Below the pieces are notes generated by a model. It was not told where the DNA came from, ran no database searches, and was given only the letters and a program-made list of their open reading frames with translations. A DNA stretch of 64,000 bases from Tautonia plasticadhaerens (GTDB lineage: Bacteria > Planctomycetota > Planctomycetia > Isosphaerales > Isosphaeraceae), in NCBI RefSeq assembly GCF_007752535.1, contig NZ_CP036426.1, positions 2,914,001-2,978,000 of the forward strand, read 5' to 3'. Shown one piece after another: positions 49,106-60,221 of the stretch (the first letter of the stretch is position 1; each line of letters opens with the position of its first letter). A program made the position numbers and the translations under genes.

Positions 49106-50965
49106 TCAGCCCGGCGCCGGGCAGGGCGTCATCGGCCTGACGGCGTGCTCGGGAAGGATGACGGTGAACCGGGAGCCGCCCCCGGGGACCGGCTCGAAGG
49201 CGATCGAGCCGCCGTGGTCCCGGACGATGCCGTAGCTCATCGACAGGCCCAGCCCGGTCCCCTGGCCGATGGGCTTGGTGGTGAAGAAGGGCTCGAAGAT
49301 CTTCTCGCGCAAGGAGGGGTCGATGCCGGATCCGGTGTCGGCCACGGCGATCTCGACGGCCCCCTCGGCGGCCCGGGTGGAGACGACCACCTCGCCCCCG
49401 GGGGGGCAGGCGTCGACGGCGTTGGAGACGAGGTTCTGGACGACCAGGTTGACCTTGGCCGGGTAGCAGACGACCCGGGGCAGGGGGCGCAGGTCGGACT
49501 TCAGGGAGACGCCCTGGCGGTCGGCCAGGCACTGCATGATGTTCAGGGTGGCGACGATGCCGGTGTTGAGGTCGGCGTCCTGGAAGTCGGAGTCGTCGAT
49601 CCGGGCGAAGTCCCGGAGGTCCTCGACGATCTTCTGGATCCGCTTGAGCCCGGCGGTGGAGCGGTCGAGGATGCGGTCGAGGTTGTCGAGGACGTAGGGC
49701 AGGTCGACCTGCTCGCAGAGGTCCCGGATCCGGGCGTGCAGCTCGCCCCGGTACTGGGCCAGGGTCTGCTCGGCCTCCCGGTAGAGGCAGAGGACGTCGT
49801 GCAGGCTGGCGACCTCCCGCCTGAGCACGAACATGTTGCTGGAGACGAAGGCCAGCGGGTTGTTGATCTCGTGGGCAACGCCGGCGGCCGTCTGGCCGAG
49901 GCTGGCCATCTTGGCCTGCTCCAGCATCCGGCCCTGGGCCTGCTGCAGCTCGTCGTGGGCGCGGCGGAGGGCCTCGTGGCCGACGCTCAGCTCGTCGAAG
50001 GCGCGGCGGAGCTCGGCGGTGCGCCCGGCGACCTTCACCTCCAGGTCGTCCCGGGCCCTCCTTAGCTCGTCCTCGACCCGGTCGATCTGGCCGCCGACGT
50101 GGGAGGCGATCCGGCCGCAGATCACCCCGAAGACGACGGTCGCCGCCGTGGCCAGTGCGGCCGAGGAGAGGGCCGAGGAGGCGCCCCCGGCCCTCCGGGA
50201 CACCTCCGGCGTCAGCCAGGCGACGAGGCAGACCGTCGCCGCCACCGGCGGCAGGAAGGCCCGCATCAGCCTCGACCGCACCGAAGGGCCCGAGAACCGG
50301 TCCAGGGGGAACGACCGGGGACCGGCCGAGGCCACCAGCCCGCCCCCCAGCAGCAGGAAGCCGACCGCGGTGTTCAGGGCCATCGGGATCGTGCCCGAGC
50401 CATACAGCAGCGGGGCGTTCGGGCTGTAGAGGTAGCCCAGCGCGAAGACCAGTCCCATCGCCCCGGCCGACAGCCCGCAGATCCCCGCCGCGTGCCCGGC
50501 GGCCGGCAGGGGCCGGGGGATCGCGAGCATCCCCAGCCCCACGCTCGACGCCAGGAACGCCGCCGCCGTGGTGAAGGCCATCTCCCCCACCGGGGCCAGG
50601 TCGAGCACCTCGGCCGGCACCTGGAGGAACCAGCGGTCGACCCCGAAGTCGTAGCGCGAGACGAATTCGAGGAACCGCAGGGCACAGACCGCCCCGGCCA
50701 GCAGCGCCGACGCCCCGGCATATCGCCTCCGCCAGGCCGAGGACGGGGCCGCACCCCCCTCGGACACGACCAGGGCGATCCCCAGGGTCAGGAACCCGAG
50801 CGCCGTGTTCGGGGCCATCGGGATGTAGTCCTCCCGGATCCCCATGAGCGCGGGCCGGCCGGTCGCCCAGCCGATCAGCGCCGCCGTCGCCAGCGTCGCC
50901 GACGCCACGCCACAGCCGAGGGCGATCCGACCGGAGGCCGTCCTCGGACGCTTCGATGCCTGCAC
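49106..50965 (-). CDS. Membrane sensor histidine kinase, orphan
   Basis: A 619-residue kinase starting at GTG 50965 (GGAGG six bases upstream). About eight hydrophobic segments over residues 10-275 form a MASE-like membrane sensor ('[20 protein letters not shown]' and '[21 protein letters not shown]' look like an internal duplication). A coiled coil ('[27 protein letters not shown]') leads to HisKA with '[21 protein letters not shown]' (His about 365) and the HATPase ('[14 protein letters not shown]', 'DTGSGI', '[13 protein letters not shown]'). No response-regulator gene is adjacent. The signal is unknown. Confidence 0.88.
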
Positions 50966-51057
50966 GGGAGGCCTCCGGGATGTCCTGGCAGATCCGACCC
51001 CGCCCCATTCTACCGGCCCCGGGCCCGGGATCACGCGACGAATCGGCCCGGGGCCGG

Positions 51058-51702
51058 TCAGCCGTCCCCGTCGTCGAGGAAGACCGGGTCGCGTCGGATC
51101 TCCCGGCCGGTGCGGACCTCGTAGACGCGGACGGCCAGCGAGGGGACCTCCAGCACGGCGAAGCTGTAGGAGGTCTGCACGCCGGGGATCCCCATCAGGG
51201 AGCCGGGGTTGATGATCGTGCCCTGGCCGTCGAGGCGGTCGATCATCGGCAGGTGGGTGTGACCCAGAACCAGGACCGAGGCGTCGGTCCGGTCCCAGAA
51301 TTGCACGATGGAGTCCGGCAGCGGCCGGTACGGGGTGATGAACTCGGTGTCGCTCGCCGGCGAACCGTGGTGGACCTCGAGGACGACGCCGCCGGAGGTC
51401 CAGGAGAGGGCCGCCGGCATGCCGTCGAGGTACTCCCAGGTGGCGTCGGCCAGCGTCGCCGGCTTCCAGCCCCGGGCGCCGATCACCTGGCGGCGCTCCA
51501 GCGCCCAGCGGTCGTGGTTGCCCCGGGCGCAGGGGATCGCCAGCTCGCGGACGCGGTCGACCACCGCGTCGGACTGGTAGCCGTAGCCGATCAGGTCCCC
51601 GGTGCAGAGGATCTGGTCGACGCGCAGCGTCTCCAGGTGCCGCAGGGCCGAGTCCAGGGCGCGAAGGTCTCCGTGGATGTCGCCGATGAGCCCGAGCTTC
51701 AT
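51058..51702 (-). CDS. Metallophosphoesterase (YfcE/MJ0936-like)
   Basis: A 214-residue phosphoesterase with all calcineurin-like metal motifs: 'GLIGDIHGDLRAL' (D, H), 'ILCTGDLIGYG' (D), 'CARGNHDRWALE' (N, H), 'EVHHGSP' and 'LGHTHLPMI' (H, H). The ATG at 51702 begins the conserved strand. Family members hydrolyse phosphodiesters or phosphomonoesters. It lies 92 bp downstream of nothing recognisable as a partner and is divergent from the GlnE-like gene; the substrate is not evident. Confidence 0.9.
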   Translation of the reverse strand: MKLGLIGDIHGDLRALDSALRHLETLRVDQILCTGDLIGYGYQSDAVVDRVRELAIPCARGNHDRWALERRQVIGARGWKPATLADATWEYLDGMPAALSWTSGGVVLEVHHGSPASDTEFITPYRPLPDSIVQFWDRTDASVLVLGHTHLPMIDRLDGQGTIINPGSLMGIPGVQTSYSFAVLEVPSLAVRVYEVRTGREIRRDPVFLDDGDG

Positions 51703-51850
51703 GACGATGACCGATCGCGACCACCCCCGGGGGGCGGCCGGGGCGGATTCTGTTACAGTGGACGACACCCGACCGCCGCCCGCCGCGACCCGGTCGTGCG
51801 AGGTCAGTGCTCGGCGGGCGAAGGTCTCATTATCGTCCGGGGCAGCACCG

Positions 51851-54145
51851 ATGGCCACGCCAATCCCGGCGGACCTGCGCCGGGCACTCGCCCGATCGCA
51901 CCCCGAAGCCTGGGTCGACCACCTGCTCGGCTCCTTCCCCGGGGACTACCTCGCCCGGTTCGACGCCGAGGCGCTGTCCCGGCACCTGGGCCTGATCCGG
52001 GAGCTGGGGGCCGACCGGCCCGTCCGGGTCTGGGCCGGGCCGGCCGACGACGAGGGGACCTGCCGGGTCGAGATCGTCGGCTACGACGCCTTCCAGCTGC
52101 TCTCGACCGTCTGCTCGCTGCTGGCGATCCACCGCCTCTCGGTGGTCGAGGCGCGGATCTACACCTCCGAGCCGCCGGAGGAGGAGGAGTCGGCGTCGGC
52201 GGGCCCGGGCCCGGCCCGTCCCCGTCCCCGGGGCCCGGGGGGGAGGCCGGGGGGACTCCCCGGGCGGGTCGGCCCGCCGAGGGCGTCGGCCAAGGGGCCG
52301 GTGGGGCCGGATCGCCGCAGGAAGATCGTCGACGTGTTCCTCGTCCGGCCGGTCGACGGCGGCGGCCCCCCCGACTGGGGGGCGTTCGAGCAGGAGCTGT
52401 GCGACCTGGCCCATCGGCTCCGGCAGGGGCAGCACGACGAGGTCCACCACCGGCTCATCGGCCGGTTCGCCGCCGCCCTGGGGGACCGCACCCCGCCGGG
52501 GGCGCCGCTGGAGTCGATCTGGCTGGAGATCACCCCCGGCGGCCCCGACGCGCCGACCCGGGTCGACGTGCAGTCCCGGGACAGCTTCGGCTTCCTCTCG
52601 CTGACGGCCGGCGCCCTGGCGCTGAGCGGGCTGCGGATCGTCCGGGCCGACGTCCGGACCGACCCCGAGGACGGCTTCGCCCGGGACACGCTCTGGATCA
52701 CCGACCGCTCCGGCAAGCCCGTGGTCGACCCGGATCGGGTGCTCGCCCTGAAGTACGCCCTGATCCTGATCGAGCACTTCAGCTCCCGGCTGCCCCGGGC
52801 CACCGACCCGGAGGCGGCCCTAGTGCACTTCAGCCGGTTCGCCAACGACCTGATGGCCCGGCCCGACCGCGCCCGGGAGTTCGCCGCGCTGGACCGGCCC
52901 GAGGTGATCGACGCGCTGGTCAAGGTGCTGGGGGAGAGCCGGTTCCTCTGGGAGGACTTCCTGCTGGCCCAGCCGGAGAACGTCCTGCCCCTGATCGGCG
53001 ACCCCCGGCGCTGGGCCACCAGCCCCGATCGGGGCGAGCTGACCGCCGACCTGGCCGACCGCCTCTCCTGGGCCGACGACCCGGATGCCCGGGTCCGGGC
53101 CCTCCGACGGTTCAAGGACCGGGAGATCTTCCGGGCCGACGTGCGGTCGATCCTCGGCCTCAGCGGCGGCCCCGAGGGGTTCGCCAACGAGCTGACCGAC
53201 GTGGCCGAGGTCGTCATCGCCGCCGCGCTGGACCTGGCCGCCCTGCGGCTGGGGGCCGAACCCCCGGCCCGCAACGACGGGCAGCCGGTGCCGGTCTCCG
53301 TCTGCGCCCTGGGCAAGTTCGGCGGCCGGGAGCTGGGCTTCGCCTCGGACCTGGAGCTGATGGTCGTCTGGGACGACCGGGACGCCGCCGATCGGCCCGG
53401 GGGCCCGCCGGCCTCCGACTACTTCGACCGCCTCGTCGCCGGGCTCCGCCAGGTGCTCGGCGTCCGGCACGGCGCGACCTTCGAGCCGGATTTCCGCCTC
53501 CGCCCCTACGGCAAGGGGGGCCCCCCGGCCACGGCGCTCTCGCTCTTCGAGTCGTACTATCAGGCCGGGGGCCCCGCCTGGTCTTACGAGCGTCAGGCCC
53601 TGATCCGCCTGCGGGCCGTGGCCGGAGACCCGGCGCTCGGCCGGTTGCTGGAGCGGCGGCGAGACCGCTTCGTCTTCGGCCCCGAGCCGTTCGACGTCGA
53701 CGGCCTGAAGAAGATGCGAGCGCAGCAGGTCCGCCAGCTCGTCCGGCCGGGCACCGTCAACGCCAAGCTGAGCCCGGGGGCCCTGGTCGACATCGAATAC
53801 ACCGTGCAGGCGATGCAGATCACCTACGGCCGGGCCGATCCCGGCCTGAGGGCCACCAGCACGCTGGACGCGATCGCCGCGCTGGAGGCCGCCGGTCGGC
53901 TCGACGCGCCGACGGCGAACCTCCTGCGAGAGGGCTGCCGCTTCTTCCGGTCGCTGATCGGCGCGCTGCGGGTGGTCCGGGGCAACGCCGAGGACCTGAC
54001 CGTCCCCCCCGCCGACTCGGAGGACTTCGCCCTGCTGGCCCGTCGCCTCCGCATGGACGGCCCGGGGACGCTCCACCGCCGGATCGAAGATCGGCTCCGG
54101 GAGACGCGGGCGGCCGTCGACCGCCTGCTCGCGACGCTGGCCTGA
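51851..54145 (+). CDS. GlnE-like adenylyltransferase with two N-terminal ACT-like domains
   Basis: A 764-residue protein. An ACT-like domain lies at about 60-108 ('VEIVGYDAFQLLSTVCSLLAIHRLSVVEARIYT'), a Pro/Gly linker follows, and a second ACT-like domain at about 236-300 ends 'ARDTLWITDRSGKPVVDPDRV', as in GlnD. The GlnE nucleotidyltransferase motif is 'ALGKFGGRELGFASDLELMVVWDD' (about 485-508), followed by 'RPYGKGGPPATALSLFESYYQAGGPAWSYERQALIRLR'. 'RPGTVNAKLSPGALVDIEYTVQAMQI' is the C-terminal GlnE block. Only one transferase domain is present, against two in E. coli GlnE. It probably adenylylates or de-adenylylates GlnA, with glutamine sensed by the ACT domains; that role is inference. The second catalytic acidic residue is Glu instead of Asp. 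Confidence 0.8.
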   Translation: MATPIPADLRRALARSHPEAWVDHLLGSFPGDYLARFDAEALSRHLGLIRELGADRPVRVWAGPADDEGTCRVEIVGYDAFQLLSTVCSLLAIHRLSVVEARIYTSEPPEEEESASAGPGPARPRPRGPGGRPGGLPGRVGPPRASAKGPVGPDRRRKIVDVFLVRPVDGGGPPDWGAFEQELCDLAHRLRQGQHDEVHHRLIGRFAAALGDRTPPGAPLESIWLEITPGGPDAPTRVDVQSRDSFGFLSLTAGALALSGLRIVRADVRTDPEDGFARDTLWITDRSGKPVVDPDRVLALKYALILIEHFSSRLPRATDPEAALVHFSRFANDLMARPDRAREFAALDRPEVIDALVKVLGESRFLWEDFLLAQPENVLPLIGDPRRWATSPDRGELTADLADRLSWADDPDARVRALRRFKDREIFRADVRSILGLSGGPEGFANELTDVAEVVIAAALDLAALRLGAEPPARNDGQPVPVSVCALGKFGGRELGFASDLELMVVWDDRDAADRPGGPPASDYFDRLVAGLRQVLGVRHGATFEPDFRLRPYGKGGPPATALSLFESYYQAGGPAWSYERQALIRLRAVAGDPALGRLLERRRDRFVFGPEPFDVDGLKKMRAQQVRQLVRPGTVNAKLSPGALVDIEYTVQAMQITYGRADPGLRATSTLDAIAALEAAGRLDAPTANLLREGCRFFRSLIGALRVVRGNAEDLTVPPADSEDFALLARRLRMDGPGTLHRRIEDRLRETRAAVDRLLATLA

Positions 54146-54353: not shown

Positions 54354-54701
54354 TCAGATGGCGTCGGGGCCGCGCTCGCCGGTGCGGATGCGGATGCAGT
54401 CGTCCAGGGGGAGGACGAAGATCTTGCCGTCGCCGATTTCCCCCTCGGGCCCGGATCGGGCGGCGTCGATGATGGCGGTGATGGCCGGCTCGATGAACTC
54501 GTCGTTCACGGCGATCTGCAGCTCGATCTTGCGGAGCAGGTTCACGGTGAACTCGTGGCCCCGGTAGACCTCGGTGAATCCCTTCTGCCGGCCGAAGCCC
54601 TGCACGTCCATGACGGTGAGGCGATAGACCTCGACCTTCGACAGGGCGAGCTTGACCGTCTCGAGCTTGGTGGGCTGGATGATCGCGATGATCAGCTTCA
54701 T
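54354..54701 (-). CDS. PII nitrogen regulatory protein, T-loop Phe51
   Basis: A 115-residue PII protein (GlnB/GlnK family). The ATG at 54701 gives 'MKLIIAIIQPTKLETVKLALSKV'. The T-loop reads 'GFGRQKGFTEVYRGHEFTV' with Tyr46 kept but Phe at 51, the place of the uridylylated Tyr. The B- and C-loops are intact ('RSGPEGEIGDGKIFVLPL', 'RIRTGERG'). PII senses ATP/ADP and 2-oxoglutarate and typically plugs the ammonium channel. It lies downstream of amt on the same strand with a 273-bp gap. Without Tyr51, control by uridylylation is unlikely. Confidence 0.93.
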   Translation of the reverse strand: MKLIIAIIQPTKLETVKLALSKVEVYRLTVMDVQGFGRQKGFTEVYRGHEFTVNLLRKIELQIAVNDEFIEPAITAIIDAARSGPEGEIGDGKIFVLPLDDCIRIRTGERGPDAI

Positions 54702-54974: not shown

Positions 54975-56474
54975 TCACCGGGCCGAGGCGACCTCGACCG
55001 GCCGGGTGGCCGAGGGCTCGGACTTCGGGGAGACCTTGCGGGCGGCCATCGGGTAGTCCTCGTAGGGGACCGACGCCTTGACCGTGGGGGCGAAGTCGGG
55101 GTAGGCCTCCATCCCGTGCTCGCCGATGTCCAGGCCGTTGACCTCCTCGTCGGCCGAGACCCTCAGGCCGAGCGTCAGCTTGAGGGCGCCGAAGAGGATG
55201 CCGCCGACCACCACGCAGAAGCCGAAGACGGCCGCCACGCCGATGAGTTGGTGGATCAGGAGCCCGGCCCCGCCGCCGAAGAGCAGGCCGTCGCCGGTGG
55301 TGTCGGGGGCGAAGCGGTCCTCGGCGAAGAGGCCCAGGGCGAGGGTGCCGAAGGCGCCGCAGACGCCGTGCACGGAGACGGCGCCGACCGGGTCGTCGAC
55401 CCCGACCTTGTCGAAGAAGAGGATCGCCGCGACCACCAGCAGGCCCGCCACCAGGCCGATCAGGGCGGCCGACCACGGCGCGATGAAGGCGCAGGGGGCG
55501 GTGACCGCCACCAGGCCGGCGAGCACGCCGTTGAGGGTCATGCTGATGTCCGCCTTCCGGAACAGGGCCCAGGAGAGCACCATCGCGCCGATGGCCCCGG
55601 TGACGGCCGCCAGGTTGGTGGTCATGGCGATGTGGGCGATGTCCGGCGTGGCGGCCATCGTCGAGCCGGGGTTGAAGCCGAACCAGCCGAGCCAGAGGAT
55701 GAAGACGCCCAGCGCCGCCATCGGGATCGAGTGGCCGGGGATCGGGTTGACCTTGCCGTCCTTGGTGTACTTGCCGATCCGGGGGCCGAGGAAGATCGCC
55801 CCCATCAGGGCCAGCCAGGCTCCGGTCGAGTGCACGACCGTCGAGCCGGCGAAGTCCCACATGCCGAGGCCCGCCAGCCAGCCGCCGCCCCAGATCCAGT
55901 GGCCGACGACCGGATAGATGAAGGCGCTGATGAAGAACGAGTAGATCATGTAGGAGTGGAACTTCGTCCGCTCGGCCATCGCCCCGGAGACGATCGTGGC
56001 CGCCGTGCCGGCGAAGACCAGCTGGAACATGAACTTTGCCGCCAGGGGGACGCCCGACCAGGCGATCGAGCCATACACGCCCTCGTAGTCGTCGATCGCC
56101 GGGGAGTTGTCGGCCCCCTGGAGCAGCCATCCGGAGTGGCCGAACAGGCCGTTGCCGTCGCCGAACATGATGGCGAAGCCGAAGAACCAGAAGCCCAGGG
56201 TCGCCAGGGCGAAGTCGCCCAGGTTCTTCATCATGATGTTATTCGTGTTCTTCGACCGGGTCAGCCCGCCCTCGACGTAGGCGAATCCGGCCTGCATGAA
56301 GAACACGAGGAAGGCGGCGAGCATGACCCAGAGGGTGTCCAGCGCGACCTTCTGGCCGGCCACGACGGAGGCCAGGTCCTCCTCCTGGCCCATCGCGGGG
56401 GGGGCCAGGGCGAGCCAAAGGCCGGTCGTCGCGCCCAGCGCGAGCAAGAGGGTCCGGTTCCGGCGGCGTTGCAT
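54975..56474 (-). CDS. amt: Ammonium transporter, Amt family
   Basis: A 499-residue transporter with a signal peptide ('LALAPPAMGQ') and about 11 TM helices. The twin channel histidines are seen in 'GSTVVHSTGAWLALMG' and 'VSVHGVCGAFGTLALGLF', and the substrate-gate region in 'FVFFMQAGFAYVEGGLTRSKNTNNIMMKNLGDF' form. The C-terminal cytoplasmic tail ('DEEVNGLDIGEHGMEAYPDF') holds the conserved region that binds PII. It imports ammonium at the inner membrane. A PII gene follows 273 bp downstream, the standard amtB-glnK order. The lengthy tail after 'EAYPDF' is extra. Confidence 0.95.
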   Translation of the reverse strand: MQRRRNRTLLLALGATTGLWLALAPPAMGQEEDLASVVAGQKVALDTLWVMLAAFLVFFMQAGFAYVEGGLTRSKNTNNIMMKNLGDFALATLGFWFFGFAIMFGDGNGLFGHSGWLLQGADNSPAIDDYEGVYGSIAWSGVPLAAKFMFQLVFAGTAATIVSGAMAERTKFHSYMIYSFFISAFIYPVVGHWIWGGGWLAGLGMWDFAGSTVVHSTGAWLALMGAIFLGPRIGKYTKDGKVNPIPGHSIPMAALGVFILWLGWFGFNPGSTMAATPDIAHIAMTTNLAAVTGAIGAMVLSWALFRKADISMTLNGVLAGLVAVTAPCAFIAPWSAALIGLVAGLLVVAAILFFDKVGVDDPVGAVSVHGVCGAFGTLALGLFAEDRFAPDTTGDGLLFGGGAGLLIHQLIGVAAVFGFCVVVGGILFGALKLTLGLRVSADEEVNGLDIGEHGMEAYPDFAPTVKASVPYEDYPMAARKVSPKSEPSATRPVEVASAR

Positions 56475-56918: not shown

Positions 56919-58367
56919 TCAGTAGAGCAGGATCACGTCCAGGCCGTAGGTGAACTGGCTGCCCGAGACGCCGCCGTTGTAGGGTGAGCCGTACTGGGCC
57001 CAGTCCCACCGGGTCTCGGGGCGGATCCAGAGGTTGGGGCAGGGCTTGTAGATCATGCCGAGGGTCTGCTCGTAGTAGCGGTCGGCGGTCCCGGTGCGGA
57101 CGCCGTCGGTGTCCCAGAAGATTTCGCTCCGCCAGACGCCGGTGAGGTTGTCGCCCAGCTCATAGAGGAACCAGTTGCCGAAGCTGTACCAGGTGCCATT
57201 CCCCCGGCGGACGAAGGCGACGTCGTCGTCGGGCGAGGCGTCGAAGGGGACGCCATACTCGATCCCCTGGTCGGTCTCCATCACCTGGGTCAGCCGGTCG
57301 GTCCACTGGTAGGAGAGGACCGTGGTCCAGAGGTTGGTCGAGTCGTCGGTGTAATCGGCATTCGACCCGAGGGTCGGGGTGTCGCCGATCGCGACGTTGA
57401 AGAACCTCGGATAGACGTTGGCGTTGCTGCTGAAGACGAAGGTGAGGTTGAGCTTGTCCTCCATCCCGGTGTAGCTGAAGCCTCCCATGTAGCCCCACGG
57501 GGCATTCTCGTTCTGGAAGCGGTCCCAGCCCTGGGGGATGCCGTTGTAGACGACCAGGTTGTCGCTCACGTTCCAGGTCGTCATCAGCCCCCAGTGGGTG
57601 AACGGCTGGCCGAAGGTGAACATGTAGGGGACCGACAGCAAGGGGCGGCCGATCGCCGGCACCACCTCATAGCCGTGCAGCGTGTACCAGCGGCCGAACT
57701 TGAGGTCGAGGCCGCCCTCCGTCAGCACGGGCAGGTGCATCTCGGCGTAGAACTGGGCCAGGTCGATGCCGGCGAACTGGGTGGCGCCGAAGGCGCCGTC
57801 GAAGACGCCCCGCATCTTGTTGAACGAGTGGTCGTGCCCGAAGAGGAAGTCCAGCCGGCCGCCGAAGTTGACCTCGCCGTCGTGGTCGAGCGGGCGTTCG
57901 AAGACGGTGTAATACTGGTTGCCCATCCAGTCGTTGGACTTGTAGTTCGGGGTGACGCCGAAGTTGATGCCGTCGGAGGGGAAGGCGGGGTTGGCGGTGA
58001 AGCTGTTCTGAATCCAGCCGTAGATCTGGAACTTGCTGTCCTCAGCCCCGAAGAGTTCCATGATGTAGCGGCGGGGCTCGCCCTCGGCGGCGGCCTCGCC
58101 CGCGGCGGCCTCGAGCGTGGGCTGCTCGCCGGCCAGGACGTTCTCGGCGGCGGGCAGTGCATAGGGCTGGACGGGGTCGACGGCCGGGGCGGGGGCCTCG
58201 GCCATCGGCAGGGGGGCGACCGGGGAGGGGGCGGCGGAGGGGGGTAGCGGGGGGAGGCCGTCGGGGCCGACCTGGGCGTCGACCCTCCCGGCGACCCCGA
58301 GCCCGGCCAGCGCGGCCGCCATCGCCCATCCCGGCCGCCACGGTCGAGATCGCGTCGTCTTGAGCAC
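56919..58367 (-). CDS. Outer-membrane beta-barrel porin (BBP2/OmpL-like)
   Basis: A 482-residue exported protein starting at GTG 58367, with AGGAGG eight bases upstream. The signal peptide is 'LKTTRSRPWRPGWAMAAALAGLGVAGRVDA'. Residues about 30-95 are Pro/Ala/Glu-rich. Beta strands dominate afterwards ('FQIYGWIQNSFTANPAFPSDGINFGVTPNYKSNDWMGNQYYTVFERPL', 'DLKFGRWYTLHGYEVVPAIGRPLLSVPYMFTFGQPFTHWGLMTTWNV', ending 'FTYGLDVILLY'), the pattern of the planctomycete BBP2-like outer-membrane family. It is flanked by amt and glnA, so uptake of a nitrogen-related solute is possible but not shown. Confidence 0.82.
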   Translation of the reverse strand: MLKTTRSRPWRPGWAMAAALAGLGVAGRVDAQVGPDGLPPLPPSAAPSPVAPLPMAEAPAPAVDPVQPYALPAAENVLAGEQPTLEAAAGEAAAEGEPRRYIMELFGAEDSKFQIYGWIQNSFTANPAFPSDGINFGVTPNYKSNDWMGNQYYTVFERPLDHDGEVNFGGRLDFLFGHDHSFNKMRGVFDGAFGATQFAGIDLAQFYAEMHLPVLTEGGLDLKFGRWYTLHGYEVVPAIGRPLLSVPYMFTFGQPFTHWGLMTTWNVSDNLVVYNGIPQGWDRFQNENAPWGYMGGFSYTGMEDKLNLTFVFSSNANVYPRFFNVAIGDTPTLGSNADYTDDSTNLWTTVLSYQWTDRLTQVMETDQGIEYGVPFDASPDDDVAFVRRGNGTWYSFGNWFLYELGDNLTGVWRSEIFWDTDGVRTGTADRYYEQTLGMIYKPCPNLWIRPETRWDWAQYGSPYNGGVSGSQFTYGLDVILLY

Positions 58368-58799
58368 TGCGGTGGACCTCCTGTCCAGTGCGAGGGATAT
58401 CCTGGTCGGGGGGACACCGGCGGGAGAGGTACCGGGACGGGGCCGGGCCGATCGGGGGCGCCTCATCCTTCGGCGGCCCCCGCGGCGTCCGGGCAAGGCG
58501 ACCGCCCCCGCACCTCCGCGGGCGCGACGCCAAACCCCGTGAGACAGATCATCGGATCCGGACGGGACCCGACGTGAGCCCCCGGCGGCGGCCGCCCGGG
58601 CCGGGGGCGGCCCGGGGGAGGGGAGGATTGGCGGACTGGCCCCTTGCGTCGGCGGCGCCGAACGGGTATTTCTCCTTCCCAAGCCAGGACCATGGGCACG
58701 GTCTCGCGCCGCGCGCCGACGACCGTGCGGGAGAACGCCGCCCGCCGACCGACCGACCCATCCCCCCTCTCCCCCGCTAGCACGGAGCCCGTCTCAGCA
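58368..58799. other. Divergent porin/glnA control region
   Basis: This 432-bp gap should hold promoters for the porin gene (minus) and glnA (plus). The only AT-rich patch is TATTTC near 58670. No hairpin, small gene or clear -10/-35 pair is visible, and I find no glnA ribosome site stronger than GGAG. A long leader is likely. Confidence 0.4.
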
Positions 58800-60221
58800 A
58801 TGGCTATGACCCCCGCCGACGTTCAGAAGATGGCCAAGGACGCCGGAGTCCAGATCGTCGACCTGCGGTTCATCGACCTCCCCGGTGTCTGGCAGCACTT
58901 CTCGATCCCGGTGCGCAACCTGGAAGCCGACCTGTTCGAGGACGGGCTGGGATTCGACGGCTCGAGCGTCCGCGGCTATCAGCAGATCCAAGAAAGCGAC
59001 ATGCTGCTGAAGCCGGACCCCGACACGGCCAAGATCGACCCCTTCATGGCCGTGCCGACGCTCACCCTGATCTGCAACGTCTACGACCCGGTGACGCTGG
59101 AGTCCTACAGCCGGGACCCGAGGTACATCGCCACCAAGGCCGAGGAATATCTCAAGTCGACCGGCATCGCCGACACCTCCTACTGGGGGCCCGAGGCCGA
59201 GTTCTTCATCTTCGACGATGTCCGGTATGAGCAGACCGCCAGCACCGGCTTCTACAAGGTCGACTCCAAGGAGGCGATCTGGAACTCGGCCCGGGACGAG
59301 GGCCCGAACCTCGGCTACAAGATCCGCCACAAGGAGGGGTACTTCCCCGTCCCGCCGGCCGACTCGCTGCAGGACATCCGCAGCGAGATGATCATCGAGA
59401 TGGAGAAGCTCGACATCCCGATCGACCTGCACCACCACGAGGTCGGCACCTCGGGGCAGGGCGAGATCGGCATGCGCTTCGACACCCTCCGCGCGATGGC
59501 CGACAAGGTCCTCTACTACAAGTACGTCATCAAGAACGTCGCCCGCCGCCACGGCAAGACCGCGACGTTCATGCCCAAGCCGATCTTCGGCGACAACGGC
59601 TCGGGCATGCACACCCACCAGAGCCTCTGGAAGGACGGGACCAACCTGTTCTTCGACGAGACCAAGTACGCCGGCCTCTCCGACACCGCCCGCTACTACA
59701 TCGGCGGCCTCCTCAAGCACGCCCCGGCGCTCCTGGCCCTGACCAACCCCACCACCAACTCCTACCGCCGCCTGGTCCCCGGCTACGAGGCCCCAGTGAA
59801 CCTGGTCTACAGCCAGCGGAACCGCTCGGCCGCCATCCGCATCCCCCTCTACAGCAAGAGCGCCAAGGGCAAGCGGATCGAGTTCCGCTGCCCCGACCCC
59901 TCCTGCAACCCCTACCTCGCCTTCCCCGCCCTGATGATGGCCGGGCTCGACGGCATCCAGAACAAGATCGACCCGGGCGAGCCGATGGACCGGGACCTCT
60001 ACGACCTGGAGCCCGAGGAGGCCGTGAAGATCAGGAGCACCCCCGGGAGCCTCGCCGAGGTGCTCGACGCCCTGGAGAAGGACCACGAGTTCCTCCTCAG
60101 GGGGGACGTCTTCACCCCCGACGTCATCGAGACCTGGATCCACTACAAGCGCGAGCGCGAGTTGCAGCAGGTCAACCTCCGGCCCGTCCCCTACGAGTTC
60201 TACCTCTACTTCGACATCTGA
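58800..60221 (+). CDS. glnA: Glutamine synthetase type I, GlnA
   Basis: A 473-residue enzyme of type I size and sequence: '[24 protein letters not shown]' (Asp/Gly loop), '[11 protein letters not shown]', '[18 protein letters not shown]', '[24 protein letters not shown]' (ATP site) and '[34 protein letters not shown]'. The adenylylation Tyr is present at 401 ('[13 protein letters not shown]'), so control by a GlnE-type enzyme is possible. It condenses glutamate and ammonium. A tandem hairpin follows the gene. It lies near amt, PII and the GlnE-like gene. Confidence 0.97.

Follow-up and report, generated by a model that had tools for sequence, protein, structure and literature searches.

In the textbook scheme, GlnD, PII and GlnE form a bicyclic cascade, and the locus described here raises the question of what becomes of this relay when ACT domains of the kind found in GlnD stand directly in front of a GlnE transferase. 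The window, a 64,000-nucleotide stretch of the Tautonia plasticadhaerens genome, holds such a gene together with genes for PII, an ammonium transporter and glutamine synthetase (Table 1). A reading made from the sequence alone had claimed two ACT-like domains ahead of one GlnE domain in this protein, and profiles and the predicted fold bear this out, with adjusted domain ends: ACT1 does not stop at 108 after starting near 60 but is longer, is split by an insert and reaches about residue 191, and ACT2 covers about 224-316 instead of 236-300. The gene is real and conserved, as its product is 72-78% identical over its whole length to proteins of three congeners and about 55-58% identical to that of another genus (G014). 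It contains exactly one PF03710 domain (E 8.6e-38; curated cut-off 24 bits). The best NCBIfam equivalog model for two-headed GlnE scores 182.5 bits (cut-off 625), and TIGR01693 for GlnD gives 49.3 bits against 519, with matches to the ACT-region pieces of the GlnD models alone.

Table 1. Features of the ACT-GlnE locus in window coordinates, with the basis of each assignment
Feature	Position	Strand	Basis
YfcE-family phosphodiesterase, divergent neighbour	51058..51702	-	TIGR00040
ACT1-ACT2-GlnE single-headed transferase, 764 aa	51851..54145	+	ORF intact
GlnD-type linker before ACT1, residues 13-57	51887..52021	+	NCBIfam GlnD models, hhalign
Predicted ACT1, residues about 58-191, Gln82 instead of canonical Gly	52022..52423	+	hhalign, AlphaFold2 model, alignment
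Pro/Arg-rich disordered insert within ACT1, residues 111-155	52181..52315	+	low pLDDT, poor conservation
Predicted ACT2, residues about 224-316, D244-S-F-G247 retained	52520..52798	+	hhalign, AlphaFold2 model, alignment
GlnE nucleotidyltransferase domain, residues 355-598	52913..53644	+	PF03710, 130.6 bits
Catalytic D500-L-E502 (D-x-E, not D-x-D)	53348..53356	+	alignment
Third carboxylate, D547	53489-53491	+	
C-terminal helical domain, residues 635-763	53753..54139	+	PF08335, Pfam E 2e-9
PII protein, Phe at position 51	54354..54701	-	PF00543
Ammonium transporter Amt	54975..56474	-	profile matches
GlnA, type I glutamine synthetase	58800..60221	+	TIGR00653, 687 bits
GlnA target Tyr401	60000-60002	+	counted from ATG at 58800

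Pfam gives only a weak hint of the ACT domains (PF01842, E 0.002, under the cut-off), and the NCBIfam GlnD models match residues 13-107, comprising the linker and ACT1, and 226-305. In hhalign, a profile of nine ACT-linked GlnE N-terminal regions aligns with one of nine planctomycete GlnD C-terminal regions at 99.7% probability (E 8.4e-26), collinearly over 233 columns. The AlphaFold2 model of the protein (mean pLDDT 84.6, pTM 0.78) places beta-alpha-beta-beta-alpha units at 71-191 and 224-316, with pLDDT below 50 at residues 111-151, a stretch that interrupts ACT1 and is poorly conserved among relatives. The N-terminal part of the model resembles the ACT regions of large GDH, aspartate kinase, threonine deaminase and CASTOR1 with Z scores of 6.8-10.5, which are middling, yet the matches all belong to one fold class; a single-sequence model of residues 1-318 (pLDDT 53) was set aside as poor. 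The ACT fold on which the sequence-only reading depended is present both by structure prediction and by profile comparison with GlnD, and residues 58-316 are, as judged from profiles and model, an ACT pair of the GlnD type. The ACT domains of GlnD are considered glutamine sensors (PMC3173338). In the alignment, the canonical glycine of the first strand-helix loop is present in ACT2 (Gly247), a domain that is strongly conserved across the genus and G014, and is replaced in ACT1, which makes ACT2 the better candidate for a glutamine site; the ACT2 glycine is missing in some relatives.

The rest of the genome (9.4 Mb, 99.3% complete) provides neither a separate glnD nor a full-length glnE, so that canonical enzymes encoded elsewhere do not account for control. 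One PF03710 and one PF08335 match are present in the genome, both within the ACT-GlnE gene, which rules out a second GlnE head elsewhere, and the GlnD model matches only the ACT region of the same gene, which rules out a hidden GlnD. No genome of the order carries a complete GlnD; in G006, itself incomplete, a C-terminal piece is all that is present. The uridylylation site of PII is Tyr51 of the T-loop (PMC4285133). In a survey confined to the main PII of each genome and not extending to weaker PII-like paralogues, position 51 is Phe or Val throughout the genomes read for this order (PII loci L113-L127), which fits its lack of GlnD, and GlnD-bearing class-mates keep Tyr51. Both PII copies in the genome of the window have Phe at this position. 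GlnA in the window does retain its target tyrosine, as the earlier reading had it. An Rfam search of the window from 40 to 64 kb returned no match.

The wider distribution of the ACT region indicates where the Tautonia protein comes from. Of 45 genomes searched in the order, just five have homologues with this region, namely G014 and the four of the genus, and other genera have a plain two-headed GlnE of about 1050 aa with no ACT domains; G014, whose draft assembly is 9% contaminated, holds such a plain two-headed GlnE (L073) in addition to its ACT-GlnE. The nearest named relative is T. sociabilis (77% identity), which was also the sole match of a contig scan by short peptide patterns, and plasmid records contain ordinary GlnE heads only. 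When 199 genomes of the phylum were searched with the ACT region, nine genomes of family f2 and one further genome (G048) were found to encode a GlnE of about 1200-1280 aa with the order head1-ACT1-ACT2-head2. Here, a GlnD-type linker and the ACT pair lie between the heads (loci L057-L062 and L066-L068 in f2, L063 in G048), and two PF03710 domains are present in every protein of this type tested. The form with ACT1-ACT2 and a single head occurs in Tautonia, G014, G121, G155 and G081. A fusion confined to Tautonia was rejected, as several planctomycete families possess ACT-linked heads. The f2 proteins were also considered as GlnD-GlnE fusions, their N-terminal head matching a GlnD model at 16-304, and this too was rejected because Pfam shows two PF03710 domains in them and no HD match. 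In G155 (L069), the ACT-GlnE frame runs about 190 residues beyond its single head; Pfam recognises nothing in this extension, whose alignment with the segment after a GlnE N-terminal head is weak.

In E. coli GlnE a central regulatory domain lies between the heads, at the position of the ACT pair in the f2-type proteins, and the C-terminal head AMPylates glutamine synthetase (GS) while the N-terminal head reverses the reaction (PMC12409994). By sequence comparison, the Tautonia protein corresponds to only the C-terminal part of the head1-ACT1-ACT2-head2 design. The catalytic carboxylates of its head are kept across all relatives in the alignment, and the first catalytic motif is D-L-E in all five Tautonia-type proteins. 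More broadly, D-x-E is found in 18 of 18 ACT-linked heads and D-x-D in all 48 other rows (46 distinct), and D-x-E is read from this alignment as a derived mark common to the ACT-linked heads. In a tree of 66 heads, the same 18 fall into one clade (SH-aLRT 100), within which those of Tautonia and G014 form one subclade (SH-aLRT 99). After removal of long branches, the tree does not separate AT-C from AT-N ancestry of the ACT-linked heads and neither favours nor excludes that head1 was lost just once (AU p 0.24), and an AT-C assignment from the tree alone was therefore dropped. With the tree indecisive, the head is best read from its position and shared motif as the C-terminal, adenylylating head of GlnE.

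The loss of the other head coincides with the loss of GlnD within the ACT lineage. GlnE is present in 78 of the 199 phylum genomes, and single-headed forms occur in G000, G081, G121 and G155 (a truncated frame in G191 excepted), all four ACT-linked and none accompanied by GlnD. GlnD is found in 10/10 genomes with ACT-linked two-headed GlnE versus 0/4 with single-headed GlnE (exact p 0.001, uncorrected for relatedness, with counts that rest on perhaps five lineages). The link is limited to the ACT lineage, since a plain two-headed GlnE persists in many genomes that lack GlnD (27 of the 73 with a two-headed enzyme), and GlnD loss alone does not demand an ACT-GlnE, as most GlnD-less genomes of the order retain the plain two-headed form. 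Nor is ACT insertion tied to the absence of GlnD, for the nine f2 genomes and G048 have both an ACT-GlnE and a full GlnD. PII-UMP, the product of GlnD, drives the deadenylylating head of GlnE (PMC12409994), so that loss of GlnD would deprive this head of its activator, which fits the occurrence of single-headed forms in GlnD-less genomes.

The gene neighbourhood adds a further component. The phosphodiesterase frame upstream is open as far as 51858, and the conserved start is Met53 at 51702, which if used leaves about 150 bp between the starts of the two divergent genes. The encoded protein scores 60.1 bits against a TIGR00040 cut-off of 56.25, with intact metal motifs. A divergent copy adjoins ACT-GlnE in all five genomes with a Tautonia-type protein, and these copies are 64-83% identical to that of the window and form one clade. 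None of the other 40 genomes in the order has a member of this subfamily; their best match is a 44% paralogue that the five also possess, and no phosphoesterase lies next to the single-headed GlnE of G121, G155 or G081. The GlnA gene is found beside ACT-GlnE in all relatives with enough sequence, and in G014 (L072) the phosphodiesterase, ACT-GlnE and GlnA are grouped among unrelated genes, including those for a purine permease and an adenine deaminase. This arrangement suggests that the three form a functional unit. Genes for PII and Amt accompany ACT-GlnE in both the window and T. sociabilis; in G040, G041 and G014 no PII gene adjoins it. A histidine kinase gene (49106-51724, minus strand) stands between the glutamate synthase and phosphodiesterase genes of the window and was not seen there in T. 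sociabilis (L035). A porin-like gene (56919-58682, minus strand) separates Amt from GlnA, is shared with T. sociabilis (71% identity) and was not found at the locus in G041 or G014.

On balance, the protein is probably a single-headed GS AMPylase under the direct control of its ACT pair. Glutamine would bind the ACT pair, more likely at ACT2, and switch on the head, which would place AMP on Tyr401 of GlnA, allowing glutamine to feed back on GS while bypassing the GlnD/PII-UMP relay; PII, unmodified, may still have a modulating effect. This reading is supported by the GlnE family and fold of the head, the GlnD-type ACT pair and the conserved carboxylates, by the correspondence of the head to the C-terminal head of the head1-ACT1-ACT2-head2 proteins, and by the fact that every single-headed GlnE sampled is ACT-linked and lacks GlnD. 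Also in its favour are the absence of GlnD and of a second head, PII without Tyr51 and the proximity of GlnA with Tyr401. Weighing against the AMPylase reading are the lack of the canonical glycine in ACT1, the D-x-E motif versus the D-x-D of characterised GlnE, and the indecision of the tree between AT-C and AT-N. The unusual active site could also mean that the target is PII or another protein and not GlnA, which is very improbable given that GlnA with its Tyr401 is the constant neighbour and that PII has no Tyr51. It is likewise unlikely, if less remote, that the ACT pair responds to a different ligand or just positions the head, with control exerted through PII or expression: ACT domains bind varied amino acids, the canonical glycine is missing from ACT1 and from ACT2 of some relatives, and PII and Amt are neighbours in two of the genomes, but the linker and both ACT domains are specifically of the GlnD type, ACT2 is strongly conserved in the genus and G014, and PII is not adjacent in the other three.

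With the N-terminal deadenylylating head gone, AMP must be removed by an activity from elsewhere or by this head in reverse. The leading candidate, put forward tentatively, is the divergent YfcE-type phosphodiesterase, which would hydrolyse from GlnA the AMP added by the ACT-AMPylase and so replace the phosphorolytic N-terminal head, a proposal that extends the single-headed AMPylase reading and is not exclusive of it. Its adjacency in five of five genomes, the restriction of its subfamily to these, the retention of the three genes together in G014 and the intact metal motifs of a protein above the family cut-off make such an eraser possible, although the five genomes represent two genera only and the single-headed enzymes of G121, G155 and G081 lack an adjoining phosphoesterase. 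No YfcE-type enzyme is known to take AMP off a protein, which also counts against it. The full combination, in which a glutamine-sensing AMPylase and a dedicated hydrolytic deAMPylase of the YfcE type are encoded back to back and GlnD, PII uridylylation and the phosphorolytic head have been abandoned, is marginally more doubtful than the eraser proposal itself. Alternatively, the same head, run backwards, or another activity could reverse the modification. A head that the ACT pair switches between adenylylating GlnA when glutamine is high and reversing the transfer when it is low is chemically plausible in that the transfer is reversible, and the other head was dropped in three or so lineages that have no partner gene in common. 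E. coli splits the two activities between heads (PMC12409994), however, and the conserved Tautonia phosphodiesterase would be left without an evident role, which makes one head for both tasks an unlikely solution.

Compared with E. coli GlnE, the Tautonia protein has the same nucleotidyltransferase and helical domains, aligns structurally in its AlphaFold2 model with both E. coli heads (Z 36.6 to 1v4a and 35.0 to 3k7d) and is encoded near a GlnA with the target tyrosine, but it has one head and not two, a GlnD-type ACT pair in front and D-x-E in place of D-x-D. From the linker through ACT1 to ACT2 it runs collinear with the C-terminus of GlnD, but it lacks the nucleotidyltransferase and HD domains of GlnD and has a GlnE head attached to the sensor. 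The proposal that it merges the roles of GlnD and GlnE goes too far, since the protein has the sensor of GlnD but no uridylyltransferase and no HD domain, and a single GlnE head. With the ACT-inserted two-headed GlnE of f2 and G048 it shares the ACT pair, the D-x-E head and membership of one clade, while those genomes keep the N-terminal head and a full GlnD, both lost in Tautonia. The neighbouring phosphodiesterase scores above the YfcE family threshold with its metal motifs retained, but belongs to its own subfamily tied to ACT-GlnE, and its putative protein substrate would be new. We found no description of an ACT-linked single-headed GlnE in the open-access literature on GlnE with ACT domains or planctomycetes.

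Taken together, the data suggest that a GlnD sensor was seemingly inserted into GlnE between its heads, and that the deadenylylating head, GlnD and Tyr51 of PII disappeared later in one lineage. A two-step bacterial control cascade may thereby have been condensed into one protein in Tautonia. This would provide a compact natural system in which direct glutamine control of GS AMPylation and a putative new deAMPylase are addressable with three proteins.
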